The position numbers were made by a program, and so were the translations under genes. Source: a virus. From it: a stretch of DNA of 25,487 bases. Within the stretch, counting starts at the first letter, position 1, and every line of letters begins with the position of its first letter. The notes beneath the pieces are model-generated. The model worked only from the letters and a program-made list of their open reading frames with translations. It was not told the origin of the DNA and did not search any database. Location: positions 1 to 25,487 of IMG/VR virus record IMGVR_UViG_3300006922_000163; one strand, given 5' to 3'. Below, piece by piece: positions 4,214 through 25,487 of this stretch.

Positions 4214-4413
4214 GTAAGATAAAGAATTTCTTTCACGATCAAATCTCTGAGCAGCAGAAGCCTGACACAGAGTATGGAGTAACTAGTATGTTAACTGTCC
4301 AACGACTCACACAAGAGTATTTGGAGGACAAAATAAATGCCCAAGCATATATACTAGGTGTGATGCTCGAAGTAAAAAACTTTGAGAACATGCATACTCC
4401 TACAAAACCATGA
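4210..4413 (+). CDS. Small protein of unknown function preceding the amidoligase
   Basis: This 67-residue protein is unrecognised. It starts in an ATGA overlap with the NinB-like gene and ends in an ATGA overlap with the amidoligase gene, so it is very likely translated with both. The chain is polar in its first 25 residues, has an amphipathic helical stretch in the middle (about 28-58), and ends in a short Thr/Pro/Lys tail. There is no membrane segment and no cysteine. Because it directly precedes an enzyme that joins carboxylates to amines, it could be a substrate or a carrier for that enzyme, but nothing in its sequence proves this. It could equally be an unrelated replication-operon protein. 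Confidence 0.6.
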   Translation: MSKIKNFFHDQISEQQKPDTEYGVTSMLTVQRLTQEYLEDKINAQAYILGVMLEVKNFENMHTPTKP

Positions 4414-8256: not shown

Positions 8257-8342
8257 GGCTGAGTGGTGGAATTGGTAGACACGACAGACTTAAAATCTGT
8301 TGAGCCGAATGGTTCGTGCGGGTTCGAGTCCCGCCTCAGCTA
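8257..8342 (+). tRNA. tRNA-Leu (anticodon UAA)
   Basis: A complete class-II tRNA starting 7 bases after the ung stop. Acceptor GGCTGAG (8257-8263) pairs with CTCAGCT (8335-8341), the outer pair being G-T; discriminator A at 8342; CCA is not encoded. The D-arm has GTGGAATTGGTAGAC. The anticodon stem is ACAGA (8284-8288) with TCTGT (8296-8300) and the loop centre TAA at 8291-8293. A long variable arm GAGCC/GGTTC (about 8302-8315) marks leucine. The T-arm is GCGGG TTCGAGT CCCGC. It would be cut out of the operon transcript by tRNA processing enzymes, releasing the lipoprotein message downstream. It reads UUA codons, common in these AT-rich genes. Confidence 0.95.
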
Positions 8343-8357
8343 CAAAAACTTGAAACA

Positions 8358-9071: not shown

Positions 9072-9144
9072 GCGCTTGTAGCTCAGTGGTTAGAGCATCC
9101 GACTCATAATCGGCAGGTCGTAGGTTCAAGTCCTACCAGGCGCA
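9072..9144 (+). tRNA. tRNA with CAU anticodon (Met elongator or Ile2)
   Basis: Acceptor GCGCTTG (9072-9078) pairs with CAGGCGC (9137-9143); the discriminator is A (9144); CCA is not encoded. The D-arm is GCTCAGTGGTTAGAGC, the anticodon arm has CCGA and TCGG around loop CTCATAA, and the T-arm is GTAGG TTCAAGT CCTAC. The first anticodon-stem pair is a T-C mismatch. The D-loop and the C4-G69 pair resemble the bacterial isoleucine tRNA whose CAU is converted by lysidine synthetase to read AUA, at least as much as elongator methionine tRNA, so its amino acid is uncertain. It lies 1 base after the terminator hairpin and 1 base from the minus-strand stop at 9146. Confidence 0.92.
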
Positions 9145-9145
9145 C

Positions 9146-9339: not shown

Positions 9340-9468
9340 TTAACGGCCTTGACCACGATACTGTTTCTGGTAGTTCTTACTACTCTTATTAGAACTCTGC
9401 TTAGTCTTTGCGGTAATCCCTGGACGCTTATTGCGTGAGGGTTGATAGTTGGAACTTTGGTTCTTCAT
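9340..9468 (-). CDS. 42-residue very basic, disordered protein
   Basis: The open frame continues upstream into the giant gene, but I start at the internal ATG at 9468, which lies 13 bases after the giant gene's stop and behind an A-run (GTAAAAAAAACATT), the A-rich context preferred by Bacteroidota ribosomes. The product is made of Ser, Asn, Gln, Lys and Arg, with no hydrophobic core (about 12 basic and no acidic residues). It ends RGQGR. Its charge fits binding to DNA or RNA in the virion, or packaging; no family is recognised. Starting further upstream would need a 99-residue protein overlapping the giant gene by about 170 bases. Confidence 0.5.
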   Translation of the reverse strand: MKNQSSNYQPSRNKRPGITAKTKQSSNKSSKNYQKQYRGQGR

Positions 9469-9481
9469 ATAATGTTTTTTT

Positions 9482-12400
9482 TTACTGTGGCTTTGTAGAG
9501 ATGTTGTACTCCATACGCTGCAATGCATTTCCAGCAGGGAATAACTTTCCTCCATGATGCAGCAGGCGTGACCTTCCTGCATATACACCTGTCGGAATAG
9601 TCGCGTCTCCTGCCATCGTCTGCATAGTAGCTTCTGCAAACTTAAACAAGTCTCCTAAAGTTTCCGTAGTAGGCATTCCTTTTGTGACTTCCTGATAGCT
9701 TCTAGGATTGTAGAAGTAACTAAGGTCATTCTTTAATCTATCTGCGATGTTCATCAAGAAAATGAGCATGCCCTTTGCATCGTCATCTTCTTCATCATCT
9801 AAAGCGACCTTAAAGAAAGCAGCCATCATCATTAAGGACATGTACTGATACAACTTAGCATATGCTTTTCGAGCATTCTCTTCAGTAACAGGGTTAGAGA
9901 AATCTAACTCCGCATGCCTACGGTATATAGGAATCAACATCTTAGGCAGCTGCGCAAACCATGCGCCTTTCTCTCCCCATATAGAGGGTATCATACCCTG
10001 CACTTCTCGCTCTAAATGCAAATCATAGATTTTACCTTGGGCTTCTTGAGCAAAACCTTCTGGAACCCAGCTCTTAAATTGCATAAGAGCCGGACCTAAC
10101 ATAGTCTGTTTCAAGGCAATAGGACTTTGAGGGTCGTAGTTGCCATGAATGTTCATGTTAATTTGGTTGATCTTATTGGTCAGCTTAGTCCATTCTTTTT
10201 CTCCTGGCTTAAAGCCTTCTGCTTGAATAACACCCTTACCATCCATTAACTCCCAAGCATTGCTCTCGCCAATTTTAGTCCCAAGCAAAGCAGCGATAGT
10301 AGCGTGACCATACGTGAAATACTCTGAGCTACGTTGCAGTTCATATACGCCAAAGGCTTTAACAATCTGATCAAACGTAGTCTCGTCGTCAAGCGGATCA
10401 TATCGAACCTCCGTAAAGTCTTTCAATACATCAAGACGCAGCATCATGTTCTGAATCTTCTTTGCTGTTTCTGTTTCAGACAACCCAGACCTAAGTGTAG
10501 CCGTATGCAAAGACATGTGGAGCATAGTTCTAAACGCCTTATCTGCATCACGCTCATCGAAGTCTGTTCTCCTAGCAGCGTGTTGATACACAGCCATCGA
10601 GCCAAAGATGTAGTTTGTGAATGCAGCAGGTACGTTCCAACCCATACCACGAGCTTGAGTAAACTTAGTTAGACCTCTGAGAACCTTTCCTAAATCAACT
10701 TTACTGCCTATAGCATTTATCTTGTCTATAACGGGGTCTACAATCTCAATATGCTGCTCCTCAGTTATCCGACCATTCTCTAATCTTTCATCTGCTTCTT
10801 TTATTATTTCTTCTAGCTCTTTCTTTTTTTGCTTTTCCTCAAGTGTACGAGCGCGTTTTGCACCTACTAAGTACTTCTCGTTCATCTGCTTAGATTGACC
10901 ATAAAACTCTCTAATGCTTGCGCTAGCCGCCTTCGTTATGTTTTGTCTAGCATCGCCACTCTCTCGTACATAAGCTAATCCTGTAAGCTTATTGATTCTC
11001 TTTTCTCCCTTACCATTCGTAACAGAGACTCCAACATTATTCAAAGTTGTTTCGGTAATCCTTACAATATCCTCTACCTCATTCTTTGCCTTATAAGTAG
11101 TTGCCATCATGGTAAACTTCTTATACACTTTGTCCATATTGAACTCTTGCTCTTTCAATTCAGTAAACCTCTTCATGAAGTGAACAGGTATGTCTCTTCG
11201 GAACTCTCCGGTTACAGGATCAATCAGCCGAGCCTCTAACTCTTCATCATTACTTGTAATACTTTCGACAAATCGACTGTGCTGTTTTAAGACTACTTGC
11301 TTAGGACTGATGCTATCCATAGCCATCTTCTTCCTGATAGCAGGTAAAAACAATCCCTGCTCTACAGCATGAATGTTTTCTGCGTAAGTGTCCAGCGGCA
11401 AGCTTGCCATCATCTCCTTAAACTGGGACCGCAAAAAGTTGTAGTACGCTAACGCATCATCTTCCCTTTGCAGATCTTCAAACCTTTCATCTAAGAACCC
11501 AGTCTCTTTACCCACTACTTTAGGTAGAGGCATATGATACAAAAATTGGTTTTTAGCATTAGCCGGACGCAGCTCTTTGCCACTAAAGTATTTATAGTGA
11601 GCAGCAGGACTGTTCAAGTTTACCCAAGCAATCTTCTGTGCTTTGCGACTTTCTTTAGCATCTTCGCCTGTCGTATTCATATCGATGACATCAAACGCTG
11701 CCACCTTAGCATCAGCATAACGATCCATCAACTTGTCCTGTCTAGCTAGAAGCTCTCTAGTACCAACCTTACCAAACTTCTTTTCCAACTGAAGCATGTA
11801 TGCTGGGTCGTCTTTGCGCGTAACCTCTCGAATGTCTAGGTTGTACAAACGCTCCACATCGATACGATCAGTATGTTCAGTAAGCCACTCGTAATAGTTC
11901 TTCCATCCAGACTCACTGTTTTCAGTAAGAGCCACTGTTCTACGCTTATGCTCTTCAAGACTCCACTTGCCGCTTACAGGACTGATAATTTTAGGAGTAG
12001 GTTTCCCGTCGGCGTCTAGCTCTACCAGTCCCTCCCAACCATGCTTCTTATAGTAGTCAGTTTTCTTAAACGCAGCACTCAGAATTTCATAAGCCTCAAC
12101 ACGCGTAGTATAGTCAGTCTTCTGACCGTCATATGCAACCTTAAGAATATCGTCTAAGAAAGAAAGCTCAATCCTACCTTGACGACCAGCAGACATCAAG
12201 TTGGCCTTGAGGAAATTGATAGCCTCCATAGTCTCAAAGCTGTCGTCCGTGATCTGATCTGCTGTAGGACTACCCGCATACAACTGCTTAGCGTACTTGC
12301 GTAATGCCTCACGAAGGATGTCTAAGTAGTCATCTTGCATCGCATTAGCACGACCCACCAAGTCCCTAACTTTTTCTCGGCTCTCACGGTTCAACTTAAC

Positions 12401-15400
12401 CTGTTTAGCAAACCTACTGTAAAACGCAAGAGCAGTCTGAGCACTGAGAATACTCGTCATGTAAGCCTTGTTAGGCATCTTACCTGCCATACGATACATA
12501 ACATTGTCGATGTCCTCAAGCTCTCGCTCAACCATCATCAACACAGACTTTGCGGTTACACTATCATCACTTAGTGCTTCTATGTCTGCCTTCTCTTTAG
12601 CTATCCTTCTATCTATACTTTTCAGCGCACTGTTGTTTCCTGCAAACTTTGCTCGTACAGCTTTAAACTCTTCCATACGAATCTTCTTATAAGCAATCAT
12701 AGAATCTACATTCCGAACGTCTCCCTCTTTACGAGGAGTAAACATTCTTTTTTTAGACTCTACTTTACTTTTTTCAGAATTAATAAAAGGTACCTTGGCA
12801 CCCAAAGACCTTGCTCTCTTGCTTATTACAGAAGCTCCTATAGCTGAGATTTCTGTAGCAGCATTAGCACCAAAGGTGAGGTTCATTGCTTCGAGCATAT
12901 CAGCTGCAAGCTGTAGGATTTTATTCCATACACTAGTACCTCTAGCTTTAGACAATCTCTCCCCAACCTTACTGTCAACTTTTGCTAGCTGCTCAGCAAA
13001 GCGAGCGTTGGACATCGTTTCCGATAGGAGTTCTTTTATATCTGTCAAGCCATAAAACTTGTCTTGATTCTCCTGCTGGGTAAAAAAGTTGTAGTCGCTT
13101 TGGGCATCTGCATCAAAATCAGACAGACTCTTCTTACGGAATTGTATATCCTTAAATACTCTAGTTCCTCTCAAGAACTTTTGGTATTCGCTAAACTTCA
13201 AACCCATTGCAGCTAGACCTTCTGCGCTTGTAAGCTTCCGCCGCAAAGTTTCAAGCTGCTGCACCTGCTGCTTCACACGCGGATCTTTACTAGTGACTGC
13301 CCACACAGTATATGCGTGAACCAGCTCATGAGTAAACTCTGCATCTGTAATATCCGCACGAACATCGATAGTATGCGTTTTAGAGTTGTACGTAGATGGC
13401 GCATTCATATTAGACAGAACACGTATCCGTACTTGCTTTTCTTTTGGAATCATAGACTCCATCAGCATAATCTTCTCTAAAACCGCGTTTAGCTTTGTCC
13501 CGTTACGATTTACAAAAGCTTCTACAGGACTTTCTTTTACAGGTACTACAACTCGAGTCCTAGGAGAAGCAGAGAAGAGACTGCCATCGCCATCATCGTC
13601 AAAATCCATATTATCATAGTCTGCAGCTTCAGTACCTGTAATTAATGAATCTGTAGTTTTGTCATCACCTTCAGTACCAAAAGCTTTTTCTACTGCGGGA
13701 TTGTCCTCAACAGTAGTTGTGCCATTAGTATCAGTACCACTTCCGAAAGGATCTCCGTCATCGAATTCTTCAGCGTCGTCAAAATCAGCCTCGGAGAAGC
13801 CTTCATTGTCACTGTAGTCTTCATTTTCTTCTGAGGGTTTTACGCGCTCTATTTCTATCTCAGAAGTAAATCCTGTAGAATTACCTTCTTCATCTTGCGC
13901 GTAGCTACTGTACTCTTTATGCAAGAAGTTGCCTTTGATGCCTTGTAACTGTATAGCCTCATAATAGTCCCATGGAACACCATCGACGAGTTCTGTGCGC
14001 AGCCATTTGCCTATTTCGTGAGGTCTGTTAGACTTTTTATCGCGGAAAAATCCAAAATTTAGAGTAGCATCCCTATCGCTCTGACTAGCCTCTGGACTAC
14101 CATTTTTGAATCCGATTTCAATAACCGTTCTTTCTGTAGGGTCTTCTTCCTGGGTACGCACTACATCTTGACCAAACTCTGGTGCGCGAGGAATCAAAGT
14201 GTGGTTATGCATTACAATTTGCCTATGCGCCTCAGTATTCCAAAACACACTGTCCTTGTCCACCGCATTCATTAACTCTTGCCGGATACCATTCTCTTCT
14301 AAGTACTCTGCTAAAACATACTTAGAGAAAGAGCGAGAACCCAAGCCCCCTCCAGTAACTAAAGAGTACAATACAACAGACTTTCCAAGCTCTCGCACTT
14401 GTTTTTCTTTGTGCGTAAGGAGATCGTGCATACCAGCCAAAATCTCTTGACTCGTAACATTAAGATTGCGATCCCCTGTAAACTCTACTGTATAGTATCC
14501 ATGAGCACTAGTATCTACGTTAAGTATAAGGTGCTTTAAAAAAGGATTCTTCTCTAGGCTAGGAAAATCTTTTTTAGCCTGAGTGATTTGTGACGCCAAG
14601 TTTGTGTCTGGATCGACGAGTAGGGAATTACGGATTTCTCGAGCATTCCTACTACCATCAATTTTTTCTGCCAGCCTAGCGAAGTGATACGACCGCAAGC
14701 CTCTAAGCCAGCTATGCATCTTTGTAACGCTTTGGGTTTGCTCCTGGAAGTAAGCTAAAGCAGTATCATACATACGGGTTCTATCCACATGCTCTTCGCT
14801 TAAACTAAAGACACCATCAGCCTTCAAGTTCATAACCAAATCAGCTAACTGCCCTGGATGGGTATTCTGCAAAATTTGAGTACGCAAGCGTTCCATTTCA
14901 GCTTGCTTGAAAGCATTCAAAGCTCCTTCACTTTCTTTATACTGCTTGCTCTTTGCTCCATATTTATTCTTTGCTTTCAGGCTAGCGTTAGCAAGAGTCA
15001 AAACTTTATTCCAATCTCCAAACGCGATTCCATTAGACTTAGCCATACTGTCTTCTCCAGGAAGATTCAACAAGCCATTCATTCCCCTAATAGGATAGTA
15101 GTAAACAGTAGTATCCTGAATCATCATGTTCAGCTCCTGTCTATGTGCTGGGAACACACTATCTCTACGCAAAGTGTCTGAGAATTTAGCTAAGCGCTTT
15201 CCTTGGTTAATCGTTTTCAAGAACAGCTCTAAAAGCCCCAACTCATAGACTTGACGCTCACGTTCTTCAAGTTCTTGGCCTTTGAAATCTGCAACCAACC
15301 ACTCTTTATTTACGGCGAAATTGACCTTATTTGATCTACGCCACTTAGTATATTCCTTGGATGCCTTAGAAATAGCAACTTCCAATTCCTTACCTTCTAA

Positions 15401-18400
15401 AGTGTCAAACTTTTCAGTAGAAAAGCCTTGAAGTATTTCTGTCCTTCTGATTTTTACTTCGTTAGACAAGTACTTAGGCAGCTCGAAGTAGTTGCCATTT
15501 GTCATAGCACTTCTAGACTTAGAAACCTCTACAACATTTTTGATTGCACTAGAGCTGACAATTAACTCTATTGTTTCTTGGTTGTATCCATGGTGAGTAA
15601 GCATACTCCACAACGGATAGGTCTCTCTAGAAATCCTGAGGTCTCCTAACAAGCCATTGTTTTGGTTGTCCAAAGCATGGTTCATCATGCGGTTGAACTG
15701 CTTAGTAACAGTACCGGCTTTTGTTTCTTTGTCCAGCAAGATAAAACTGTCGTCCAGTATTTCATCTTTACCAAGCTTAGCCCAAGCTGCTTTACTAATC
15801 GCTTGACCCTTGCGCATCAAGCTTTGACCCTTACTCTGACCAATCTCTACAACATCCATGTAGTTTCCTTGGGCCAAATAGATATCAAGCTGATTAGAAT
15901 TGATAACTGCATGAAGACTTCCTTGTACGGCAAATACACCTAGAGCTGTAGCTCCTGCACTTGCATCAGCAGTAGTAAAGTCATTGTAACTCACGCCCAT
16001 GGGATCTAAAATCAAATCCCCTTTTGCATTTACAATCTCAGCTAAGTCTTCTGCATAGCCATCGCCAATAGGCTCATGGATAATCTTACGGACTTTCTCA
16101 GACGTGTTTCGATGTGAGCTATGGTACACATCAATCTGAGTGTTTCGCGCCCGGCTGATAAGCTCTTCCAAAGCTTCCACATCCATAGCCTCTAAAGACT
16201 CATTTAAAAGCTCTTTATCAGTGTAGCTTTCCACTTCAGATTTGCTTAAGCTCGCCTTCTTAACAAGACGAGGCTTATCAACCTCAGTATCAGACAGCTC
16301 ATGGTCAAACATGAGCGTAAACAGTTTGTCAATATCGTAGTCTTGACCGATACGCCCAACCAATTCTTTAGGGACAATAATTCTATCGCCCACTTCAGGA
16401 CCAGAAAATCCTACAACACGGAAAGAAGAGCTAGAAGCTTTTGCCTGAGTAGGCAAACGATATCCAAATACATCTAAGAGCTGACTATCAATACGGTTGA
16501 TATCAATATTGCCATTTTCATCTTGGAACTTACCTAAGTCAGCCTTGAACTTCCAAGGTAAAATAATTTCATCGTAAGGTTTGGCCTTAGTGGTAGTTTC
16601 TAAAGAGTTGCCTTTCCATATAGGCTGACCTTCAGAGTTAGTCACCCATGAAATAGAGCTTTTCTGCGCTTTTGACAGCTCTTCAAAAGCATACCCTATC
16701 TCAGGAGCAATAGGTCCAGAGAAACCTAACGTGCGAGGTTTAATTACTTCTGACTCTACAATAGAGATAAGTAAGCTATCAATACGCTGAGCACTAGCAG
16801 TACCCCAGAGAGGAACTGAAAACACTTGAGTATCTGGGTCAAAGTGTAAGGCAGCCATTTCATTCATGCCGTAACCCCGATTAGCACCTTCCTCACGAAG
16901 ACGTGCTGCCATCTTAACCTTATACTCTGGAGTTCCTACACCGTACTTTTTGTAGAAGGCTACTTTTTTAGCCTGGTTTTCTATTCCTCGTGCGTTGTTA
17001 TAAATGACTTTCAGGTTTTTACCACGAAGCTTTCCATCTTTTCTAAAGGCTTTGAATACTCCATACTCATCAAAACCTGTTTCGTTTTGCAGGCCTACAT
17101 CAAAGAGTCTAGAGATTTGAGTACCGTGAACAGTCTCAAGTTTGGTTTTAACTGGAACTTGTTGCTGAATTTTGAAAGTACTACGGTCTTGATCGTAACG
17201 CTTGCCTGTCAGGTTTTCTGCTACATCCTCAATCTCTTCAACAGTAAACTTCCGGACACTACCATCATCCTCATAAATGTCGATAGCTGTGTTAGCTCGA
17301 CGTCCTACTTTATATGCACTTTCATGAGTAGCTCTACCGACATTGGTAGCAACCATGAAATCATACAAGTTCATTAAACTCGTGCCTTGTATATCGCTAG
17401 GCAGCAACACAAACTCAGCACTTTTAATATAGAAATGGTGCGTACCATGATCGCCTGCTGCTACAGGTTTTCCTGGACGGAAATATCCCATCTCTTCTTT
17501 TTCTAAAGTCTGACCACTTTCTGCTTTAGCTAAAAGACCGCTGAATTGTTTTCGGCTAATCTTACCTTCCGCTAACAAATTAAGCAGCCGCTCTCGTGGA
17601 GTAATGTACTCTGCGGCATCTGTAGTCTCTATGTTTAGATATGCGGATAGTTCTGAGTTTGGTAAAAGCTTTTTAAGTTCTGCAATGTTAGAAGCATCAG
17701 TCTTAAAATCTTTAATGAGAATTCTTTTGACTACAGTATTACCCATAGAATCTACTCCCGGAGTATTCGGGATATCCTCTTTAGTAATACTAGGGACTAC
17801 AGTACCTGGAGCGATCAATGCAGCAAGACGCTTCTGCATATTCTTTAGGGTCGAGTTGACATCCTTTTTCCAGTAGACGCCTACGTCTCCTGTAACTGCC
17901 TGCACTGTATGTGCACGTACAGCTCTAGACTCTGCCACAAACTTAGCGTGATATGCTAAGAACATTTGCTTTGCAGGAATATTGTTGTCTGCTTCTAAGC
18001 CTAAATGATTAGCTATAAACTCTTGGCTTGACTTGCCTGTAACATCTCCTTTAGCCAATAAGTGCGCCTTATTGAAGAACCTCAAAGTAGATATAGCTCC
18101 TTCTTGCCGAATCCTTGGTATCTCATTCCCTTCGGAATCTGTAAATACTGTACCGTCTGGACCAGTTTTCTCATACAAATCAAATATACCAGAGTGATGC
18201 ATTTGTGTTAAACCCTCCTGCATATCTCGATTCAAGGCTGCAGTAATAATTACTTCTGCATCTTTATGGAAAGCAGCTCTGTCGCCAGATCCTTTCATAC
18301 TACTGAGAGGATGCTTGTCAAGCAACACATTCAACTCAGGGAACATGATGATTTTATTTGCTTGTCTCTGCGCTTCAGTTGGAAGCTCGCTAAAGTTTTC

Positions 18401-21400
18401 CTCTTCAATATTGTTTATGCGAGTTAGCTCTTGATCTACCAGAGATTTGATATTGTCCTTGTAGTAGTTACGGGTATTTATAAAATGCTCTATACGCAAA
18501 TCTTGTATAGGCATATCTTTTTTAGATACCCCATTTAAAAGAATCCTATTGTTTACCTGTACAGATGCTGAAGCAACTTGTATAACAGGCATAGTTTCCT
18601 TATCAGCTATTGTAGGCAGCGTAAAGCGAGAAAGCATAATCTTCTTCCCGTTACGTTGTATGTAGGTATTATCGTTCCCATAAAGAATAAGCTGAGCTAG
18701 CTTTCGATCGCCAGGACTCATCTTCAACCATTCTCTAGGGTTCATGCTAGACCTTAGCTTACTGTGAGCGTCGTAGTAATCGACCTTCAGCTTACTTGCC
18801 ATCAACGCACTGTCTCCAGACATCTGATACAAAAGATTCTTCTGCAGATATACCGAAGCCTCTTCTATCTCTTCGTCAGTTAAGTTCTTGATTGACTTAA
18901 TCTTATCGCTCAAAAGCTTAGGCATAACATAGTGCCACCTAAGATTACCTGCAGCATCCTTACTCGTATTTTGAATCAAGTCATCACCTTGAGTCGCACT
19001 AAGCATAAAGAATTTCTTGAACTGCATCGTCTGAGGCAGCGACATAATATTTGTAGTCTTAGAAACCTGACCCGTAGCAACGCTACGCATTACATACCGC
19101 AAATGTCCAAAAGCACTGACAGGATCCATTTTGCTGTTTCCTATACCCAACTCAGCCTCGATATCTTCCATACCTGGCACTTCACTAGTAAATAAGTGCG
19201 CTGGAATAGTCATCTTTAGCTCACGCTCGAACAGTTGACTAATTAAGTCTGCTTTCGTTTTTGTAGAATCTTCAGTTTCTGTAATCGCATCAAGTTCAGC
19301 TACAAAAGACTGGAACTTCTTTTTATTTATTTCAGGAACGCCTTTCGTGTAGTTGTAGAACCCATTTGTCACAAGCTTAGATAAAAAGTTTTGAAGCGCA
19401 TGGACTCCCATGTTCCGCTCATTACTACTAAACAAGTAGACTGTACCAAAAGCACCCTGATTTATGTTGTGCTTTGTGCTCAGGTATGTAACAGCATCTT
19501 TAGATGCAAACACCACAAACTGCTGGCGCAGCTGAAGCATGGTGTTCAGCTTTTGATTGTAGAAAGGGTCTTTTACATCTAAAGTTTTAATGTCCATAGA
19601 CTTTAAGATGTCCTTTACATAAGGATACTGAGCTACTGACTTTTCTAATTTCTCCTTTACATCCCTGAAGTTAGGCTTGATGCCTGCTAACTCCTGATTC
19701 AGTATACCTGATATCGTATTGTGATCTATGTACTTACGAAGTCCTAAGAACGTTTTAGTGTTACTGTCTGTATGCGTATGACGTATTGCCATAAGCTGCC
19801 TACGCAGCAATACTCCTTGAGTAGCTTTCGGGTCTACAGTAAAACTGAACTTATCCTCGAACTCTTTCATAGAAAGATCTGCTCGGTCGTAGCTTTCCTC
19901 AGTTAAATCTGTGAGGCCATCATAAGCTTCAGAAAGTTCGTTTAAGTTTTGCGCTCCAAGCTTCAACAAACCATGTGTTCCTAGCACTAATCTTTGCGCT
20001 GCTAAAAAGAAGGCTTGGTCAAACATCAAACTGTACCCAACTTCTTTTTTACTGGTGCCTGCGTTAGAATTTTTAAGAAAAATCTGAATTTTCTTTTGGT
20101 CAGCCTCAGGTAACTGATTGAATACTTGTTTTATAGGACTCGGTCTTTTATTCGTTCCTATAAGCACCCGATAAACATTCCTTTTTAAACTGCCCAAAGT
20201 CATAGCCTGATTCCTACGTTTAGTAACAGAATGCACTTGTACTAAACGAGCAGCAAGACCCACAATAATATTGATAGCCTCTTCAGTTTCTTTAACTGTA
20301 AGACCTGACACACGCATATTCTTACCAGCCCTATCCATAGGACTAAGCTTAGCTTTAGATTCAGACCCCCTTGGCGAAAAAGAGATTGAATCCTCGTCAG
20401 TTGTCTCTGTTCGAGCAGAAGGGGAATAAAGACCACCGTCGTCGTCATCGTCAAAGTCTATGTCGTCATAAGCCGAACCACTGTCTTCATTACTACCTGT
20501 ATTAACCGAAGGGTCAATAGCTCCTCCCTGGAGTTCAGAATCATCATATTCTGTGTCTCCCTCTGTATCAGTATTGAAGAAACTGTCATCAGATGTAGAG
20601 CTAGGAGTAGATTCAGTATCTCCTTCCGTGTCTTGTTCTGAAGATGAAGATGGGATTGGGGCGATATCTGCACCTACAGGTACAATATTCATCTGCTTTA
20701 CTCGGTTAGCATATACTTTACGCTCACCCGTAATCGGATCTATAATTTCTAAAGGCCCACGGTCTCCTCGATTTGCTTTTCTTGTGTCGATATATGAACC
20801 AAACAGAAAGTTATTTGCAATAAACTCATAGGACTCTAAAGGCTCTACTTTCAATCCCTGAGCAGTAGTACCATCTTCATAAAGCGTACTTCCAAACTCT
20901 AACTGAGACATTACTTTCCCTGCACTTTTAAGCAGGCTACGTTGTTCTAACGTAGAAGAATGTCGAATACCACCAAGTAGCCTTAAAAAGTCTGACCGTC
21001 CTTCTTTTGAGGTAGTATCAGACTTCCAAGAACTTTTAACTCTATACGGCTTATTCTTCGCATCAACTCTTGGGTTGCCTTGGCCATCCAGCAGTAGCTG
21101 CATAGGATCTATACCAGCTTTATAGACTACAAGTTGAGCGCCCTTCTTATTGTTAGAAGGGAAGATTTGTATCTGATTTGTTTTGGCGTTCTTTTGACCT
21201 TCTCGTATTTCAGAGACATCTTTAAATGCATTTACTCCAGAAATAGAACGGATAACTTTATTAATCTGTTTGGCTAAATCAAAACCCTCTTGTCCAAAAT
21301 CTATATCGAAATGCTCTTCTAATTGGCGCACATTATGATCATACTCTTGATCGCTCATTTGGTGCTGTTCTTTAGTCTGAGCACCAGAAGCAATATTCAA

Positions 21401-24400
21401 AGTCTGCAATGCCCTAAGAATAAACCTAGAAGACGCAATGCCTATAGAGTTTCCTTTAATAGCAGCGAACGTAAGATTCTGAGTACGACTGTCTCGAACT
21501 ATTGCATAGTGAGAACCCGTCCGCAAGCCCGACCTAGTCTTTGTGTTTTCTGCTAAAAAGGTTTTAATCTCCTCATTACTAGAGTTAGAGATGTCTTTAC
21601 CTGTTAAAGCACTGAAGAAAGTTGTAGCGTTTTCAGAGTCTCGTACAGAATAAACAACTTCTATAAGTTGATTCTTAGGGTCAGTAAGGACATCACCTAC
21701 TATTTGTGGACCTCCCTTAATCTTTCCTTCTTTATCCAAGTAGTGCATCAGCACTCCACTGCCATAGGACTCAATCTCTAGAGAGAACGTATACCCCGCA
21801 TCAGAATTAGCTAGAGCTAAAGAACCTTCGCCAAAAACGTTTTCAAAGTTAGAAACACCAATAGACATAAGTTTATTGCCGCCAGGGAAAGTTGGAAGAT
21901 TCCCCTTTACACTTTCTACAACAATCTCAACCTCGTTTCCATTTATTTGAATAGCCCTAAATATTAACCCCTCACTTCCATTTAACGCTAAGTGCTTTTG
22001 AACATCTGTCACATCAGGCTTAAGCTTACCCTCTACTTCTATGTCTAACCACAGCTTTCCAGTAGAAGTGACATTTGATGGAGTAGCTTTATCTTCTGGC
22101 ACTACCTCTTTTTGAGGAGCAGGATCATTTTCTGAATTTGTACTAGTTTCTGTTTCAGAAGAAGGAGGAGGCTGAAATTTCTTGACGCTATCGTCTTCAG
22201 TTAACTTGCCGTCAGAACTTTCTTCTGCCTGCTCATAATCTTCTTCAGAAAACTCAGACCCTGAGTCGCTATCAGCTTCAGCAGCAGCTTCGGCTTCGGC
22301 TTTAGAATTGTCAGCATCATCGTAGTAGTTAGGGTCTTCGTTGATGCTCTCATCTATATCTTCTGTGATCACATCATCATCCTCATCTGTAACTTGAAAC
22401 TTTTCAGAATTTATATCTGAGGCGTTGTCTTCGTTATTTTCCGCACGTTTCTTAAGAGCTTTGTTTATCTCTGCGCCTGCAGTAATTACACCCTCAATAG
22501 AAGCTATGTAATTAGCCAAGCCACCATCTTCTAAAAGCTGATTGTGCAGCCTAATTAACGCAATGCGGTCTTCACTAAGCTCAAACAGACTAGCGACAAC
22601 GTCTTGAATCTCAGGCACATTCAACTCTGTGTCTACCAGAGAAATAGCATCCAAAGCTTCGTGCATGTCCACGAGAGCATTGATACGCGCTACCTGTTCG
22701 TCTCTATTAAAATTATATTCTCCCTCAATAGCTCCCCTAGACATAAAGGCTTGAGTTAGGCTTTCTTCTTGCTCTCTAAGACGTTCTAACTCTTGCTCAG
22801 CTTCTTGAGTTTCTTGTTGTCTAGCTGCAGCTTTCTCTGCATTAATATTCTTAATAATCTTACGCTCAAGCTTTGTCTGCAGACCTTTTTCGATTCTGCG
22901 AATTTTCTCACGTAAAGCAGACATCTTTTCGATGTCTTGCATACTGATATTTAAATAATGCTGTATGCGCTGACCGCTAAGAATAGTGTCTGCATTAAGA
23001 GTTTTAATATTGTCGGCCAACGTCTGGGCTAATTTCTTTTCGCGTACATCGTATGCTTCTATATTGTACAATGTGTTTGCAATAGCCGTGTTTACTTCGG
23101 GGTCGCGCCCGCGATAAATCTCCTGGCTTCGTTCAAAAGCTGTCTTTGCAGCCTTCATTTGGTTTTCGTAAGTCTCGTAGACTTCAATTTTCCGTGCCAA
23201 GACCTCCTGATCAGACATAGAGTCTCCATCTTTACCTAGCAACTGCCGGTAATCGTCCGCAGTCATGTCATCTAGGATAGACTTAGCTTCTACTAAAGCA
23301 TCATCATACCTGCCTGTAATAATTTTACTTGCTGCATGACTAAATATTTGGTTTTGCTCAATGTCTTTCATGCGCTTGAAGTCTCCAGCTAAAGCTGCAG
23401 CATCCATATCGCGTTGAAGACCATTCTGCACTACACTATTCTCTACTTCTGCGCGTAAAGTCTCAAGAACACCTCCGTCTTTTTCATGCAGATCTAAGAT
23501 GCGCTGCATCTTTTCATCTCTCTCTAAAATTCCTTTTCGAACATCTTGGTAACCGCCTAAAAGCCGTAGCTTATAAACGTCTTTTTTCCCATCTTGGCTT
23601 TTTACTTTAGCTGCCCAAGGTGCTCCCATTATACCTAAGAGCATACCAATACCTACCTCTTTAAGTCCTTCTTTTGTACCGTATGAACCTTGAAAGCCAA
23701 CGCTCAAGTTGTCCATAAAGTTGACAGTCTGAGTTTGGTTTTCTTCGTCGTACTTGTGCCGCAAGTAATCTTTTGTGCTTCGAGCAATTACACCTTGCAA
23801 ACCTTCCTCTACAACACCTTCATACGCACCCCTACGCAAAATAGCTGTACCACGAGCTAGCTTACCCATATTAGTAGCTTTACCAAAGCCCAAAGTATTC
23901 AAGTCAAATGACCCTCTACTTTCTATATACTTAGGTAGAGCAGATTTGTCAACTCCTAGCCTCCGCGCTAACCGTGTTTGTTGGGAGGTACTCATTTTAT
24001 TTACGTCCCTAAGACGTGTCCGAAACATTTGTCCCCGCATACGAGTACCAAATATTTTTGGAAACATCACCATATTACTGACTCCAACTAAAGCAAAGTT
24101 TGCCAAGAATGCCGCATTTGTATGAGGCTCATATTGCTCTCGTACAGCCTGTTCTTTTTCATCTGTAAATGATCCAGCACCGTACCGAGATTCGTACTCT
24201 CTACGCTCTTCTTCTACAGCTTCATTCAAGGTATGCCTAGCTTCCATAGAAGCCTCCATACCAGCTCCTGTAAACCACTGGCGAGCTACGCGACCATACG
24301 TATTGTAGCGCATCGCTTTATTTACCTGAGAAGATGCTGAGGTAATTCCTCCTGCAGCAGCTACTCTAGTAGCATCATCTCCTAAAGCACTAATTCCTCT

Positions 24401-25198
24401 CGCTACTTCATCTACATATTTACCGCTAATGACTCTGCGACCGCCATTAGCAATGTTTTTCATAATACGTGAACCCCTAGCAACTAAACCAGCTGTTGCT
24501 GCGGCTTGAATTCCTGCGGCGCCACCGCCTGTACCAACGGTAACTGCACTCAAAATTGCTTCTGTTGCAACAGCACCAACTAAGAAAGACAGACCTCCAA
24601 AAAGATCATTGAAAATAAAATTAGCTCCTTGTTTTATGCCTCCTTGGTCACCGCCTGTTTTTACTTCAAATGTCTTACCCCAATATTCCTCAGCACGATC
24701 AAGTGCATTGGTTACAGAGTTGTCGTAAAACTTAGAAAACTCTTGATTAGCAATTGCAGAACCCAATCCATAAAAAGTTCCGCCAATACCCTGACCTATA
24801 TTTAAAACAGTGTCTCCAGCAAATTGCACAGACCCGTTAAATATCTTCTCAAATACTCCTTGAGCTTCTTGAGATTTGTCATACAGACGTGCAGGGTCAT
24901 CAAAGGTCTCGCCTTGATCTAGACCGGTCACAAATGTGCGGTCCATCAAAGGGTCAAGATCCATTCCTAAATAACCATCTTGGTTATTCTGAATACGAAG
25001 ACGAAGATCTTTATCTAAATACCCTAAGTCAGAAAAATCAACTCCTTTAGCAACAACGTTTCCAGCTTGATACTCTTCCGCTCGAAGCTCTCGGTCAGTT
25101 TTTTGTACTGTACTAGGCTGACCTGTCAAAGCTTCATCAACTTCTTCCGGCTTTGCATTCGTCAGCGGAATAAGCTTGTCGTTTAAATTTTCCTCCAT
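9482..25198 (-). CDS. Giant multidomain virion protein with RNA polymerase and metallopeptidase domains
   Basis: A single frame of about 5,238 codons from the ATG at 25198, 4 bases after the upstream stop; an in-frame start at 25243 would overlap the previous gene. Residue numbers use the 25198 start. Parts in order: N-terminal region with a membrane-prone Gly/Ala segment (about 200-242), another hydrophobic stretch (about 517-533) and coiled coil (about 750-815); acidic linker 1 (921-1043); a domain (1044-1512); acidic linker 2 (1513-1621); a 2,165-residue segment with DYDID at 2953-2957, the DxDxD signature of double-psi beta-barrel RNA polymerases; acidic linker 3 (3785-3883); a zincin peptidase with HELVH at 3957-3961 and E4056/E4060; a helical C-terminal part with hydrophobic helices (about 5111-5155). 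The likely role is delivery with the DNA and early transcription, as for crAss-like virion RNA polymerase. Function of most of the chain is inferred from motifs. Confidence 0.85.
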   Translation of the reverse strand: MEENLNDKLIPLTNAKPEEVDEALTGQPSTVQKTDRELRAEEYQAGNVVAKGVDFSDLGYLDKDLRLRIQNNQDGYLGMDLDPLMDRTFVTGLDQGETFDDPARLYDKSQEAQGVFEKIFNGSVQFAGDTVLNIGQGIGGTFYGLGSAIANQEFSKFYDNSVTNALDRAEEYWGKTFEVKTGGDQGGIKQGANFIFNDLFGGLSFLVGAVATEAILSAVTVGTGGGAAGIQAAATAGLVARGSRIMKNIANGGRRVISGKYVDEVARGISALGDDATRVAAAGGITSASSQVNKAMRYNTYGRVARQWFTGAGMEASMEARHTLNEAVEEERREYESRYGAGSFTDEKEQAVREQYEPHTNAAFLANFALVGVSNMVMFPKIFGTRMRGQMFRTRLRDVNKMSTSQQTRLARRLGVDKSALPKYIESRGSFDLNTLGFGKATNMGKLARGTAILRRGAYEGVVEEGLQGVIARSTKDYLRHKYDEENQTQTVNFMDNLSVGFQGSYGTKEGLKEVGIGMLLGIMGAPWAAKVKSQDGKKDVYKLRLLGGYQDVRKGILERDEKMQRILDLHEKDGGVLETLRAEVENSVVQNGLQRDMDAAALAGDFKRMKDIEQNQIFSHAASKIITGRYDDALVEAKSILDDMTADDYRQLLGKDGDSMSDQEVLARKIEVYETYENQMKAAKTAFERSQEIYRGRDPEVNTAIANTLYNIEAYDVREKKLAQTLADNIKTLNADTILSGQRIQHYLNISMQDIEKMSALREKIRRIEKGLQTKLERKIIKNINAEKAAARQQETQEAEQELERLREQEESLTQAFMSRGAIEGEYNFNRDEQVARINALVDMHEALDAISLVDTELNVPEIQDVVASLFELSEDRIALIRLHNQLLEDGGLANYIASIEGVITAGAEINKALKKRAENNEDNASDINSEKFQVTDEDDDVITEDIDESINEDPNYYDDADNSKAEAEAAAEADSDSGSEFSEEDYEQAEESSDGKLTEDDSVKKFQPPPSSETETSTNSENDPAPQKEVVPEDKATPSNVTSTGKLWLDIEVEGKLKPDVTDVQKHLALNGSEGLIFRAIQINGNEVEIVVESVKGNLPTFPGGNKLMSIGVSNFENVFGEGSLALANSDAGYTFSLEIESYGSGVLMHYLDKEGKIKGGPQIVGDVLTDPKNQLIEVVYSVRDSENATTFFSALTGKDISNSSNEEIKTFLAENTKTRSGLRTGSHYAIVRDSRTQNLTFAAIKGNSIGIASSRFILRALQTLNIASGAQTKEQHQMSDQEYDHNVRQLEEHFDIDFGQEGFDLAKQINKVIRSISGVNAFKDVSEIREGQKNAKTNQIQIFPSNNKKGAQLVVYKAGIDPMQLLLDGQGNPRVDAKNKPYRVKSSWKSDTTSKEGRSDFLRLLGGIRHSSTLEQRSLLKSAGKVMSQLEFGSTLYEDGTTAQGLKVEPLESYEFIANNFLFGSYIDTRKANRGDRGPLEIIDPITGERKVYANRVKQMNIVPVGADIAPIPSSSSEQDTEGDTESTPSSTSDDSFFNTDTEGDTEYDDSELQGGAIDPSVNTGSNEDSGSAYDDIDFDDDDDGGLYSPSARTETTDEDSISFSPRGSESKAKLSPMDRAGKNMRVSGLTVKETEEAINIIVGLAARLVQVHSVTKRRNQAMTLGSLKRNVYRVLIGTNKRPSPIKQVFNQLPEADQKKIQIFLKNSNAGTSKKEVGYSLMFDQAFFLAAQRLVLGTHGLLKLGAQNLNELSEAYDGLTDLTEESYDRADLSMKEFEDKFSFTVDPKATQGVLLRRQLMAIRHTHTDSNTKTFLGLRKYIDHNTISGILNQELAGIKPNFRDVKEKLEKSVAQYPYVKDILKSMDIKTLDVKDPFYNQKLNTMLQLRQQFVVFASKDAVTYLSTKHNINQGAFGTVYLFSSNERNMGVHALQNFLSKLVTNGFYNYTKGVPEINKKKFQSFVAELDAITETEDSTKTKADLISQLFERELKMTIPAHLFTSEVPGMEDIEAELGIGNSKMDPVSAFGHLRYVMRSVATGQVSKTTNIMSLPQTMQFKKFFMLSATQGDDLIQNTSKDAAGNLRWHYVMPKLLSDKIKSIKNLTDEEIEEASVYLQKNLLYQMSGDSALMASKLKVDYYDAHSKLRSSMNPREWLKMSPGDRKLAQLILYGNDNTYIQRNGKKIMLSRFTLPTIADKETMPVIQVASASVQVNNRILLNGVSKKDMPIQDLRIEHFINTRNYYKDNIKSLVDQELTRINNIEEENFSELPTEAQRQANKIIMFPELNVLLDKHPLSSMKGSGDRAAFHKDAEVIITAALNRDMQEGLTQMHHSGIFDLYEKTGPDGTVFTDSEGNEIPRIRQEGAISTLRFFNKAHLLAKGDVTGKSSQEFIANHLGLEADNNIPAKQMFLAYHAKFVAESRAVRAHTVQAVTGDVGVYWKKDVNSTLKNMQKRLAALIAPGTVVPSITKEDIPNTPGVDSMGNTVVKRILIKDFKTDASNIAELKKLLPNSELSAYLNIETTDAAEYITPRERLLNLLAEGKISRKQFSGLLAKAESGQTLEKEEMGYFRPGKPVAAGDHGTHHFYIKSAEFVLLPSDIQGTSLMNLYDFMVATNVGRATHESAYKVGRRANTAIDIYEDDGSVRKFTVEEIEDVAENLTGKRYDQDRSTFKIQQQVPVKTKLETVHGTQISRLFDVGLQNETGFDEYGVFKAFRKDGKLRGKNLKVIYNNARGIENQAKKVAFYKKYGVGTPEYKVKMAARLREEGANRGYGMNEMAALHFDPDTQVFSVPLWGTASAQRIDSLLISIVESEVIKPRTLGFSGPIAPEIGYAFEELSKAQKSSISWVTNSEGQPIWKGNSLETTTKAKPYDEIILPWKFKADLGKFQDENGNIDINRIDSQLLDVFGYRLPTQAKASSSSFRVVGFSGPEVGDRIIVPKELVGRIGQDYDIDKLFTLMFDHELSDTEVDKPRLVKKASLSKSEVESYTDKELLNESLEAMDVEALEELISRARNTQIDVYHSSHRNTSEKVRKIIHEPIGDGYAEDLAEIVNAKGDLILDPMGVSYNDFTTADASAGATALGVFAVQGSLHAVINSNQLDIYLAQGNYMDVVEIGQSKGQSLMRKGQAISKAAWAKLGKDEILDDSFILLDKETKAGTVTKQFNRMMNHALDNQNNGLLGDLRISRETYPLWSMLTHHGYNQETIELIVSSSAIKNVVEVSKSRSAMTNGNYFELPKYLSNEVKIRRTEILQGFSTEKFDTLEGKELEVAISKASKEYTKWRRSNKVNFAVNKEWLVADFKGQELEERERQVYELGLLELFLKTINQGKRLAKFSDTLRRDSVFPAHRQELNMMIQDTTVYYYPIRGMNGLLNLPGEDSMAKSNGIAFGDWNKVLTLANASLKAKNKYGAKSKQYKESEGALNAFKQAEMERLRTQILQNTHPGQLADLVMNLKADGVFSLSEEHVDRTRMYDTALAYFQEQTQSVTKMHSWLRGLRSYHFARLAEKIDGSRNAREIRNSLLVDPDTNLASQITQAKKDFPSLEKNPFLKHLILNVDTSAHGYYTVEFTGDRNLNVTSQEILAGMHDLLTHKEKQVRELGKSVVLYSLVTGGGLGSRSFSKYVLAEYLEENGIRQELMNAVDKDSVFWNTEAHRQIVMHNHTLIPRAPEFGQDVVRTQEEDPTERTVIEIGFKNGSPEASQSDRDATLNFGFFRDKKSNRPHEIGKWLRTELVDGVPWDYYEAIQLQGIKGNFLHKEYSSYAQDEEGNSTGFTSEIEIERVKPSEENEDYSDNEGFSEADFDDAEEFDDGDPFGSGTDTNGTTTVEDNPAVEKAFGTEGDDKTTDSLITGTEAADYDNMDFDDDGDGSLFSASPRTRVVVPVKESPVEAFVNRNGTKLNAVLEKIMLMESMIPKEKQVRIRVLSNMNAPSTYNSKTHTIDVRADITDAEFTHELVHAYTVWAVTSKDPRVKQQVQQLETLRRKLTSAEGLAAMGLKFSEYQKFLRGTRVFKDIQFRKKSLSDFDADAQSDYNFFTQQENQDKFYGLTDIKELLSETMSNARFAEQLAKVDSKVGERLSKARGTSVWNKILQLAADMLEAMNLTFGANAATEISAIGASVISKRARSLGAKVPFINSEKSKVESKKRMFTPRKEGDVRNVDSMIAYKKIRMEEFKAVRAKFAGNNSALKSIDRRIAKEKADIEALSDDSVTAKSVLMMVERELEDIDNVMYRMAGKMPNKAYMTSILSAQTALAFYSRFAKQVKLNRESREKVRDLVGRANAMQDDYLDILREALRKYAKQLYAGSPTADQITDDSFETMEAINFLKANLMSAGRQGRIELSFLDDILKVAYDGQKTDYTTRVEAYEILSAAFKKTDYYKKHGWEGLVELDADGKPTPKIISPVSGKWSLEEHKRRTVALTENSESGWKNYYEWLTEHTDRIDVERLYNLDIREVTRKDDPAYMLQLEKKFGKVGTRELLARQDKLMDRYADAKVAAFDVIDMNTTGEDAKESRKAQKIAWVNLNSPAAHYKYFSGKELRPANAKNQFLYHMPLPKVVGKETGFLDERFEDLQREDDALAYYNFLRSQFKEMMASLPLDTYAENIHAVEQGLFLPAIRKKMAMDSISPKQVVLKQHSRFVESITSNDEELEARLIDPVTGEFRRDIPVHFMKRFTELKEQEFNMDKVYKKFTMMATTYKAKNEVEDIVRITETTLNNVGVSVTNGKGEKRINKLTGLAYVRESGDARQNITKAASASIREFYGQSKQMNEKYLVGAKRARTLEEKQKKKELEEIIKEADERLENGRITEEQHIEIVDPVIDKINAIGSKVDLGKVLRGLTKFTQARGMGWNVPAAFTNYIFGSMAVYQHAARRTDFDERDADKAFRTMLHMSLHTATLRSGLSETETAKKIQNMMLRLDVLKDFTEVRYDPLDDETTFDQIVKAFGVYELQRSSEYFTYGHATIAALLGTKIGESNAWELMDGKGVIQAEGFKPGEKEWTKLTNKINQINMNIHGNYDPQSPIALKQTMLGPALMQFKSWVPEGFAQEAQGKIYDLHLEREVQGMIPSIWGEKGAWFAQLPKMLIPIYRRHAELDFSNPVTEENARKAYAKLYQYMSLMMMAAFFKVALDDEEDDDAKGMLIFLMNIADRLKNDLSYFYNPRSYQEVTKGMPTTETLGDLFKFAEATMQTMAGDATIPTGVYAGRSRLLHHGGKLFPAGNALQRMEYNISTKPQ
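12970..13530 (-). other. Zincin metallopeptidase domain in the giant protein
   Basis: Residues about 3890-4075 contain FTHELVHAYT with the catalytic HExxH (His3957, Glu3958, His3961), and about 95 residues later KELLSETMSN with Glu4056 and Glu4060, the usual position of the third zinc ligand in the peptidases of phage polyvalent proteins. It follows acidic linker 3 directly. It could process this chain, other virion proteins or host proteins; the target is unknown. Confidence 0.7.
13550..13845 (-). other. Acidic disordered linker 3 of the giant protein
   Basis: Residues 3785-3883 hold both shared motifs: FSEADFDDAEEFDDG (3801-3815), related to linker 1, and YDNMDFDDDGDGSLFSASPR (3861-3880), related to linker 2. 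It separates the RNA polymerase-like segment from the metallopeptidase. Confidence 0.7.
13844..20341 (-). other. Virion RNA polymerase-like segment of the giant protein
   Basis: Residues about 1620-3785, bounded by acidic linkers 2 and 3. The core is GFSGPEVGDRIIVPKE (2925-2940) followed by RIGQDYDIDKLFTL (2949-2962); aspartates 2953, 2955 and 2957 match the metal-binding triad of the DxDxD loop in two-barrel RNA polymerases. Downstream come MNHALDNQNN and a block ending in an LTHHGYNQ-like helix, which I remember as conserved in the crAss-like giant proteins. The segment's length is close to my recollection of phi14:2 gp66 (about 2,200 residues). Confidence 0.65.
20335..20660 (-). other. Acidic disordered linker 2 of the giant protein
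   Basis: Residues 1513-1621 are Ser/Asp/Glu/Thr-rich. DTEGDTE occurs twice, 21 residues apart (about 1520-1550). Near its end lies YDDIDFDDDDDGGLYSPSAR (1577-1596), which is repeated in linker 3. It immediately precedes the RNA polymerase-like segment. Confidence 0.7.
22070..22438 (-). other. Acidic disordered linker 1 of the giant protein
   Basis: Residues 921-1043 are rich in Asp, Glu, Ser, Asn and Ala, with no hydrophobic core. It contains FSEEDYEQAEESSDG (983-997), which recurs in related form in linker 3, and then a proline-rich part (PPPSSETETS). It separates the coiled-coil N-terminus from the next folded domain. Confidence 0.7.
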
Positions 25199-25202
25199 GT
25201 GA

Positions 25203-25487
25203 TTAGTTTTGACCGGTAGCGTAAGTATAGTACAGCTTACCAATGATATTTCTCATCTCCGATTCACTCATTGCTTGAATAGGAATCTGTCGTCCATCTA
25301 AAATAGTTCGGACATTACGTCGACCTATCTTTGACTTCAAGTTGTACTTACCTTCATCTCTACCTTCTAAAATTCTTTCTACATATACTCCTGTAGGGCG
25401 ATTGTCATTGGTAGACAAGACTAACCCAGGAACATCGTGAAATTGATACTGATCAACCTCATCGATATTTTTCATCCAAGTACCTAA
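25203..25487 (-). CDS. Virion-side protein of unknown function (5' end may lie outside window)
   Basis: The frame is open to the right edge, so the start is either the ATG at 25475 (90 residues) or further upstream. The visible chain is mixed and soluble, with a short acidic beginning, a strand-like segment (PTGVYVERIL, about 27-36), a basic stretch (KSKIGRRNVRTI) and a helical end with YYTYATGQN. No family is recognised. Its stop lies 4 bases before the giant gene's start, so it belongs to the same transcript and probably to the virion module. Confidence 0.6.
   Translation of the reverse strand, partial: LGTWMKNIDEVDQYQFHDVPGLVLSTNDNRPTGVYVERILEGRDEGKYNLKSKIGRRNVRTILDGRQIPIQAMSESEMRNIIGKLYYTYATGQN

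Follow-up and report, generated by a model that had tools for sequence, protein, structure and literature searches.

A 5,238-residue phage frame uniting the modules of three crAss-like virion proteins, and the terminal cysteines of its split relatives

The virion RNA polymerases of crAss-like phages are encoded in several gene arrangements. In Cellulophaga phage phi14:2 (Steigviridae), polymerase gp66 (PDB 6vr4) lies between two further large proteins, with the three genes gp67, gp66 and gp65 encoding 1797, 2180 and 1421 amino acids, respectively, and with terminal cysteines at each joint: gp67 closes with NTIC, gp66 opens with ACK and closes with QECK, and gp65 opens with SCK. Flavobacterium phage Fpv1 (Fipvunavirus) possesses two genes, gp33 and gp34, of 4,401 and 1,596 amino acids, split after a zincin that follows the polymerase. 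In crAss002, CrAssphage LMMB and other Intestiviridae, the polymerase and C-terminal parts are fused to each other, the upstream protein is separate and itself contains an HExxH motif, and cysteine is found at the joint. The LMMB gene is annotated as such a two-part fusion, and crAss-like polymerases of up to ~6,000 amino acids are already in print (PMC10136315); no statement of a full three-part fusion was found in the literature searched, which is no proof of absence. Here, we describe a linear virus record of 25,487 bases (IMG/VR record IMGVR_UViG_3300006922_000163, positions 1 to 25,487, hereafter the window), in which one minus-strand open reading frame, judged by sequence homology, is gp67, gp66 and gp65 of phi14:2 joined in the same order. 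Unlike the relatives named above, the window would carry as one chain what they encode as two or three.

The frame extends from an ATG at 25198 to a TAA at 9484-9482, and a TTG at 25243 is an alternative in-frame start that would yield a protein of 5,253 amino acids. Its features, together with the ratio of nonsynonymous to synonymous substitution rates (dN/dS) and, for the modelled core, the predicted local distance difference test (pLDDT) and predicted template modelling (pTM) scores, are as follows:

9482..25198, minus strand: giant open reading frame, 5,238 amino acids, predicted mass 587 kDa, zero cysteine
22499..24901, minus strand: N module, residues ~100-900, homologous to phi14:2 gp67 and phi17:2 gp39, hydrophobic at 194-221 and 362-382
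22004..22456, minus strand: acidic low-complexity linker 1, residues 915-1065, dN/dS 0.52
20318..20740, minus strand: acidic low-complexity linker 2, residues 1487-1627, dN/dS 0.79, the N/polymerase boundary
13937..20317, minus strand: RNA polymerase module, residues 1628-3754, counterpart of phi14:2 gp66
14519..17761, minus strand: modelled polymerase core, residues 2480-3560, pLDDT 77.5, pTM 0.81, matching 6vr4
16328..16342, minus strand: DYDID, residues 2953-2957, the DxDxD catalytic motif, its three aspartates invariant in 56 aligned sequences
13556..13936, minus strand: acidic low-complexity linker 3, residues 3755-3881, dN/dS 0.53, the polymerase/gp65-like boundary
20399-20461 and 13547-13609, minus strand: twin linker peptides of similar sequence
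12629..13528, minus strand: putative zincin-like metallopeptidase module, residues 3891-4190, dN/dS 0.05 (residues 3882-4200)
13316..13330, minus strand: HELVH, residues 3957-3961, the only HExxH of the chain, with E4056 as candidate third ligand
10823..12565, minus strand: first half of the C module, residues ~4212-4792, found in Fpv1 gp34 at E 8.9e-114
9497..10834, minus strand: last half of the C module, residues ~4789-5234, counterpart of the end of phi14:2 gp65, E 6.5e-70

A first-pass annotation of the window had reported a 15.7-kb stop-free frame of 5,238 residues, and this frame is real; the annotation did not state that it lies on the minus strand, and the plus strand over the same interval is full of stops. 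Its description of the product as among the largest phage proteins was overstated, the frame ranking third among 95 polymerase-bearing open frames sampled, the longest of which has 5,646 residues. Substitutions relative to L002, a contig 96.4% identical to the window, support coding, with dN/dS of 0.19 over residues 1-4540 and 0.05-0.19 in the modules (calculated with our own script); the acidic linkers between the constrained modules are only weakly constrained. L002 carries the giant frame up to residue 4541, where one missing A causes a frameshift. A second contig, L003, is 99.9% identical to the window and 80,916 bases long, and the giant frame crosses its ends, with residues 1-3887 at the contig start and residues 3838-5238 at the contig end; the end piece differs from the window at 2 of 1,401 residues, and the terminal repeat of L003 spans 152 bases at 99.3% identity. 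The nearest other relative, L021, is ~40% identical in the N and core parts and possesses a single open frame of 5,008 amino acids, and L022 has a frame change in linker 3, near 13,800, and keeps fused-type ends. In the tree of polymerase cores described below, L021 (fused) and L022 (broken in linker 3) are the nearest kin of the window besides L002 and L003. The giant frame is not an assembly chimera.

The assignment of the middle part to the crAss-like virion RNA polymerases of the phi14:2 gp66 family is supported by sequence homology and by predicted fold. Against PDB sequences, a phmmer search with this part found 6vr4 at E 7.5e-18 as the sole match at E up to 1, and a profile of 56 sequences found 6vr4 at E 4.5e-161 over positions 18-1136, the next matches having E values of 0.36 or worse. 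The DYDID motif and the upstream GDRIIVPKE (at residue 2937), from which the first-pass annotation had proposed a polymerase, both stand where it placed them, and the motif's aspartates are also invariant in an alignment of 10 sequences. The structure predicted around DYDID did not reveal an alternative fold that would overturn the proposal: Foldseek searches with the core model returned 6vr4 at E 1.5e-32 as the only match under E 0.001, and a VIA alignment superimposed model and 6vr4 over 810 residues (Z 26.6, root-mean-square deviation 3.3 Å). The second-best structural match was QDE-1, at Z ~16. Judged by the whole-core match to 6vr4, the predicted core has a two-barrel fold like that of QDE-1 within a single chain; the listed structural matches (6vr4 and QDE-1) include no T7-like fold, a listing that excludes nothing. 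Among named phages, the best-scoring polymerase matches were those of Fpv1 and its sister phages (Fpv1, 27% identity, E 2e-30).

The remaining modules were identified with profiles trained without all 14 reference-phage loci. The N profile finds phi14:2 gp67 (E 1.1e-30) and phi17:2 gp39 (E 1.2e-102), as well as csAssE-Sib, Dulem virus 41 and Kehishuvirus. The zincin profile finds phi14:2 gp65 and Fpv1 gp33, and the C profile finds gp65, Fpv1 gp34, seven Intestiviridae polymerases, phi17:2 gp36 and others. With the gp67 and gp65 parts recovered by these profiles in the same order, on either side of the gp66-like polymerase, the window protein is a three-into-one fusion, in agreement with the earlier suggestion of a fused form of two or three giant genes. 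The hydrophobic termini proposed at the same time were borne out in part. In a 19-residue hydropathy scan, the N part peaked at 194-221 and 362-382, weaker peaks lay at 1641-1659 and 3081-3099, and no value exceeded 1.3 in the C-terminal third, so that the hydrophobic C-terminal segment was not confirmed. Profile searches of the PDB with the N module and both halves of the C module gave no credible match, and searches of Pfam and NCBIfam with three pieces of the protein found no family at curated cut-offs.

Following the polymerase, where a zincin had been noted before, the window protein possesses H3957, E3958, H3961 and E4056, the HExxH plus downstream glutamate expected of a zincin-like metallopeptidase; in 35 aligned zincins these positions are kept in 32, 35, 35 and 32 sequences, respectively. 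The zincin profile ranked 9sfn, an internal virion protein, first in the PDB (2.4e-11), followed by the ejection protein gp48 (8vb2; 8.4e-7) and the polymerase of coliphage N4 (1e-5), and Pfam SprT-like gave a weak match in 19 of the 35 members (best E 0.001). That these matches reflect the HExxH letters only was considered and rejected, as a profile of the part after HExxH still ranks 9sfn and 8vb2 first. With the HExxH stretch removed from the profile, 9sfn (2.6e-6) and 8vb2 (6.5e-4) were still first and N4 was no longer listed; thus the link to N4 rests on the HExxH helix and ~55 residues after it. The tetrameric gp48 (a PhiM1 protein by name) and the 9sfn protein share the zincin region with the window protein, and unlike it are proteins of 1,263 and 1,337 amino acids with no polymerase by name or size.

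N4 gp50 offers a parallel of layout. Its single chain of 3,500 amino acids consists of an N-terminal domain, a ~100-residue low-complexity linker, the polymerase, an HExxH domain and a large helical C-terminal domain (PMC12633501), so that in both proteins a zincin directly follows the polymerase in the same chain. Unlike that of the window, however, the N4 polymerase is of the T7-like single-subunit kind and not two-barrel (PMC5512222), and the N and C profiles of the window family gave no credible PDB sequence match. That the two layouts coincide although their polymerases are unrelated suggests the flanking modules as the ejection gear. A giant virion protein carrying a polymerase is also found in Thermus phage P23-45, whose tape-measure protein has 5,002 amino acids (PMC10770324); there, unlike in the window, the polymerase lies at the N end and is fused to a long-tail tape measure.

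To place the fusion among its relatives, the best 80 of 490 polymerase relatives in viral contigs (L021-L100) were sampled, such that all frequencies below refer to a sample near the window's polymerase. Gene layouts were scored at 95 polymerase-bearing loci, and a quick tree was built of 91 polymerase cores, four loci with less than 75% of the core being left out; 78 rows were scorable. Rows cut at a contig end were dropped for the state hidden by the cut, and L002 and L022 were left out of the final tree counts as frameshifted copies. Frames were classed as N alone, lone polymerase (R), lone C, N-R, R-C or full fusion. Full fusions account for eight of the 78 rows, and layouts are scattered over the tree with at least six changes. 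These counts follow the move of L071 from full fusion to R-C, made after BLAST showed its start to be like the lone polymerase of L034, rejoined after ~1,050 residues; before it, the counts were nine full fusions and eight changes, or seven changes without L022. The move is not independent of the cysteine pattern, as the M-S-C start of L071 is what drew attention to it. The N part of the eight full fusions was recognized by profile in three (the window, L021 and L033) and by length in five.

The window protein contains no cysteine in its 5,238 residues, where ~31 would be expected from the 0.6% rate of other minus-strand genes of the near-identical contig, and the eight full fusions together contain none in 40,404 residues. 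During a search for internal starts, a pattern was spotted at the beginnings of split chains: among polymerases with a gene of their own, 25 of 28 begin M-x-C, as do 62 of 63 C proteins, compared to 1 of 58 fused N-R frames and none of eight N proteins. Start cysteines on split chains and their absence from the window suggest that the ends that meet are linked, a reading that predicts a cysteine at the C-end of the preceding chain. Among rows not used in forming the rule, large frames directly upstream of the polymerase end with cysteine in 28 of 28 cases (32 loci were asked, four of which have no upstream frame of 700 amino acids within reach). These upstream frames are N proteins by position, only those of L040 and L084 matching the N profile; 11 of the 28 are cut at their start, and those of L067, L072, L078 and L081 probably hold polymerase sequence too. 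At these same four loci, the polymerase core is apparently split over two frames, the downstream frame starting M-A-C and the upstream one ending in cysteine.

By class, a cysteine is present at nearly all chain ends that face a gene boundary. All eight N proteins have one cysteine each, within the last 4 residues (scored within the last 10), and N-R frames with a separate C protein have an end cysteine in 46 of 47 cases; the 47 include L022 and L002, the end cysteines of the latter lying in a frameshifted tail, and without both the count is 45/45. Lone polymerases have a cysteine at each end in 17 of 18 cases. R-C frames have one at the start in nine of 11 (L071 included) and at the end in none of 11, and lone C proteins in 54 of 55 at the start and 0/55 at the end, C-ends being counted for C frames over 900 amino acids only. 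With L071 kept as a full fusion, one of nine full fusions would have an N-terminal cysteine (and three more), and the R-C start count would be 8/10. The outer chain ends have cysteine in 0/63 and 0/74 cases, and the background of terminal cysteines in other frames of at least 250 amino acids is 11/156 at the start and 29/156 at the end.

The same holds beyond the main sample. In contigs of metagenome-assembled genomes (MAGs), start cysteines were found in 9 of 11 polymerases, all four C proteins and none of four N-R frames, and all six N-R frames with a complete end have a cysteine in the last 10 residues; in cr85_1 and PhiCrAssBcn18, all three proteins fit the rule at the ends seen. Since these counts are of sequences and not of events, tree-independent pairs provide a fairer test: boundary and cysteine change together in 6/6 pairs at the C junction (p 0.03) and in a mean of 5.7/7 at the N junction (p 0.03-0.06, from the quick tree), with none in the opposite direction. 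Several of the MAG contigs have giant frames that open only with a stop codon read as a residue, TAG in L113, L114, L121-L123 and L126, and TGA in L118. A further polymerase relative lies in a 3,307-amino-acid frame without terminal cysteine on the 325-kb contig L109, from a Bacillota MAG; no C module was found within the stretch examined.

The best explanation of these observations, and in our view a probable one, is that the window protein is the one-polypeptide cargo string of a crAss-like, Fipvunavirus-related phage, that split relatives staple their chains to one another, and that fusion replaces the staple. The string would be laid out as the N module (gp67), acidic linkers, the two-barrel RNA polymerase (gp66), the zincin and the C module (both gp65). 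It would be packed in the head and exit through the tail with its N-end leading, as a flexible and partly unfolded string of beads, to refold inside the cell, where the polymerase would start early transcription. Such passage is in keeping with what is reported of crAss001, in whose virions three polymerase-related proteins constitute the cargo and cargo chains passing constrictions under 50 Å must be partly unfolded (PMC10172136). In split relatives, the end of each chain would be stapled to the start of the next, disulfides that form in the virion being the likeliest means, and gene fusion would make this staple needless, as in the full fusions without any cysteine. With few inner cysteines, the string would not tangle through wrong disulfides, and cysteines at inner ends could join the chains in order. 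A broader proposal, to which we lean only slightly, is that crAss-like phages at large eject their cargo as one covalent string, linked by disulfides between C-terminal and N-terminal cysteines where it is split and made as a cysteine-free polypeptide where it is fused. The staple would keep the order of ejection through the tail and then open in the reducing cytoplasm, freeing the polymerase. Virions of crAss001 do contain other disulfides, which hold tail and portal-vertex parts together (PMC10172136); in that source the word cysteine does not occur, and the disulfides described there lie elsewhere than in the cargo.

Several points weigh against this interpretation. The cytoplasm is reducing, so that the disulfides would have to form late, and docking, metal binding or targeting are other roles that the terminal cysteines could have. 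The rule has exceptions in L077 (at both ends; this locus fits no class) and L109, and L013 and L017 have no start cysteine by the first-methionine rule, an M-S-C start lying further in. Some proteins have several inner cysteines, above all the R-C proteins (0 to 14). Not every copy of the fused gene reads through, L002 being broken at residue 4541 and L022 in linker 3. The N-fused state is mostly assigned by length, the N profile matching 18 of 58 late-core frames, and left-out profiles found no N part in Fpv1 or Intestiviridae; two of the eight full fusions (L041 and L066) gave no zincin match. Finally, the model of the N module, from 18 aligned sequences, is too poor (pLDDT 58.5, pTM 0.37) to inform function, and the designation ejection part is therefore based on the module's similarity to virion proteins by homology and on its two hydrophobic stretches.

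Of the alternatives, one retains the pattern and changes its meaning: the terminal cysteines would bind metal or mark adjacent cargo chains for docking or packaging, and fusion would remove the need for docking. We regard this as possible but doubtful. What is seen is the position and pairing of the cysteines, and a profile built from the N-terminal 60 residues of C proteins recognizes the starts of 18 of 28 lone polymerases (E up to 1), so that the two may have more in common there than the cysteine. Yet the cysteine is kept while the surrounding sequences vary widely at both start and end, by eye the C-ends have nothing obvious in common beyond it, and other cysteines are few in most of the proteins (none in 52 of 63 C proteins; a median of one in N-R frames). 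A polyprotein is a second alternative, in which the chain would be made whole and, as the virion matures, cleaved within the acidic linkers, possibly by the zincin that it contains, to give separate N, polymerase and C proteins in the virion. Iyer et al. 2017 proposed that zincins process such multidomain proteins (PMC5512222), the H-E-H...E set of the window is intact, and dN/dS is lowest in the zincin and in the stretch that follows it (0.05 in both). Linkers 2 and 3 also close with similar peptides (residues ~1580-1600 and ~3864-3884; D-F-D-D-D...L-[YF]-S...R-T). L021, the relative with a single open frame, lacks this twin peptide, however, and as a protease site it was dropped from the preferred interpretation; when 28 proteins were searched for [FY]S motifs that follow acidic or disordered runs, no pattern shared beyond the window was evident by eye. 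Phages with separate genes also give zincin matches, and chains produced by cleavage would lack the terminal cysteines found on chains that are made separately. We consider maturation by cleavage unlikely.

Separate products could also arise from internal translation starts, beside or instead of the full chain, for example at Met1621 at the start of the polymerase part, a position at which L021 and L022 likewise have a methionine. Met1621 is not followed by the cysteine that is present in residues 2-6 of 25 of the 28 separately encoded polymerases, the modules upstream are strongly constrained in the same frame, and the eight full fusions have no cysteine anywhere; we regard internal initiation as very unlikely. 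Least credible of all is an assembly chimera or a readthrough of separate genes. The frameshifts of L002, at 96.4% DNA identity, and of L022 could be cited in its favour, but all junctions are in frame in L003, as are those up to residue 4541 in L002, L021 is one open frame, constraint runs on through the giant frame, and the cysteine pattern agrees with a true fusion.

If the cargo string is as proposed, the giant gene makes it possible to test how phages move very large proteins through the narrow channel of a tail. The fused and split layouts amount to experiments performed by nature: the order of the modules stays the same, and where a gene boundary shifts, cysteines are gained or lost with it. 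The pattern predicts a covalent link between separately made virion proteins that can be checked in cultured phi14:2 (host Cellulophaga baltica) and crAss001 (host Bacteroides intestinalis); no phage in culture is known to have a full fusion. The cysteine rule also flags possible unknown links of the string. In phi17:2, gp38 (L005:25528-27081; 517 amino acids) follows the N protein and has a cysteine at both ends and none inside, and in csAssE-Sib a 752-amino-acid protein (L019:26411-28669), also after the N protein, has a cysteine at each end; on this pattern, both are possible, hitherto unrecognised middle links of the cargo string. An argument from the presence of N and C parts in phages without a polymerase, namely these two, was not used, a remote HHpred match to the phi14:2 polymerase having been reported in such a phage (PMC11054128). 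The polymerase profile gave no match in the whole phi17:2 and csAssE-Sib records and matched the other three of five records. Similarly, hhalign found no polymerase among six large phi17:2 proteins and the csAssE-Sib N protein, with phi14:2 gp66 as positive control and two further queries being fragments only; a zincin search of the two records, run with no positive control, was empty.

The near-identical contig encodes terminase (TerL), portal and major head proteins recognized by PHROG, and its TerL is closest (41% identical) to those of Flavobacterium Fpv-type (Fipvunavirus-type) phages. The Fpv1 record does not place Fipvunavirus in Crassvirales, a trait of which is IHF together with genes 74/75 in the structural block (PMC7886860). 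The giant gene lies near the end of a minus-strand block that faces plus-strand genes, with two small frames after it. The neighbouring features of the window are:

25203..25487, minus strand: 3' end of the upstream gene, in the same direction, 540 amino acids and no cysteine in the near-identical contig
9340-9468, minus strand: small frame directly after the giant gene, 42 amino acids
9146-9316, minus strand: second small frame, 56 amino acids, its first half hydrophobic as judged by eye
9072-9145, plus strand: tRNA-Met(cat)
8257-8343, plus strand: tRNA-Leu(taa)
5320-6288, plus strand: a single protein that contains a gamma-glutamyl cyclotransferase domain and matches glutamine amidotransferase more weakly

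In a megablast comparison of the window with the phage collection, the tRNA-Leu was the only match, at 90.5% to cr271_1. In L101, a 1,227-amino-acid protein with no cysteine and with an endolysin-like region is encoded two genes upstream of the giant frame (13293-16976, minus strand).

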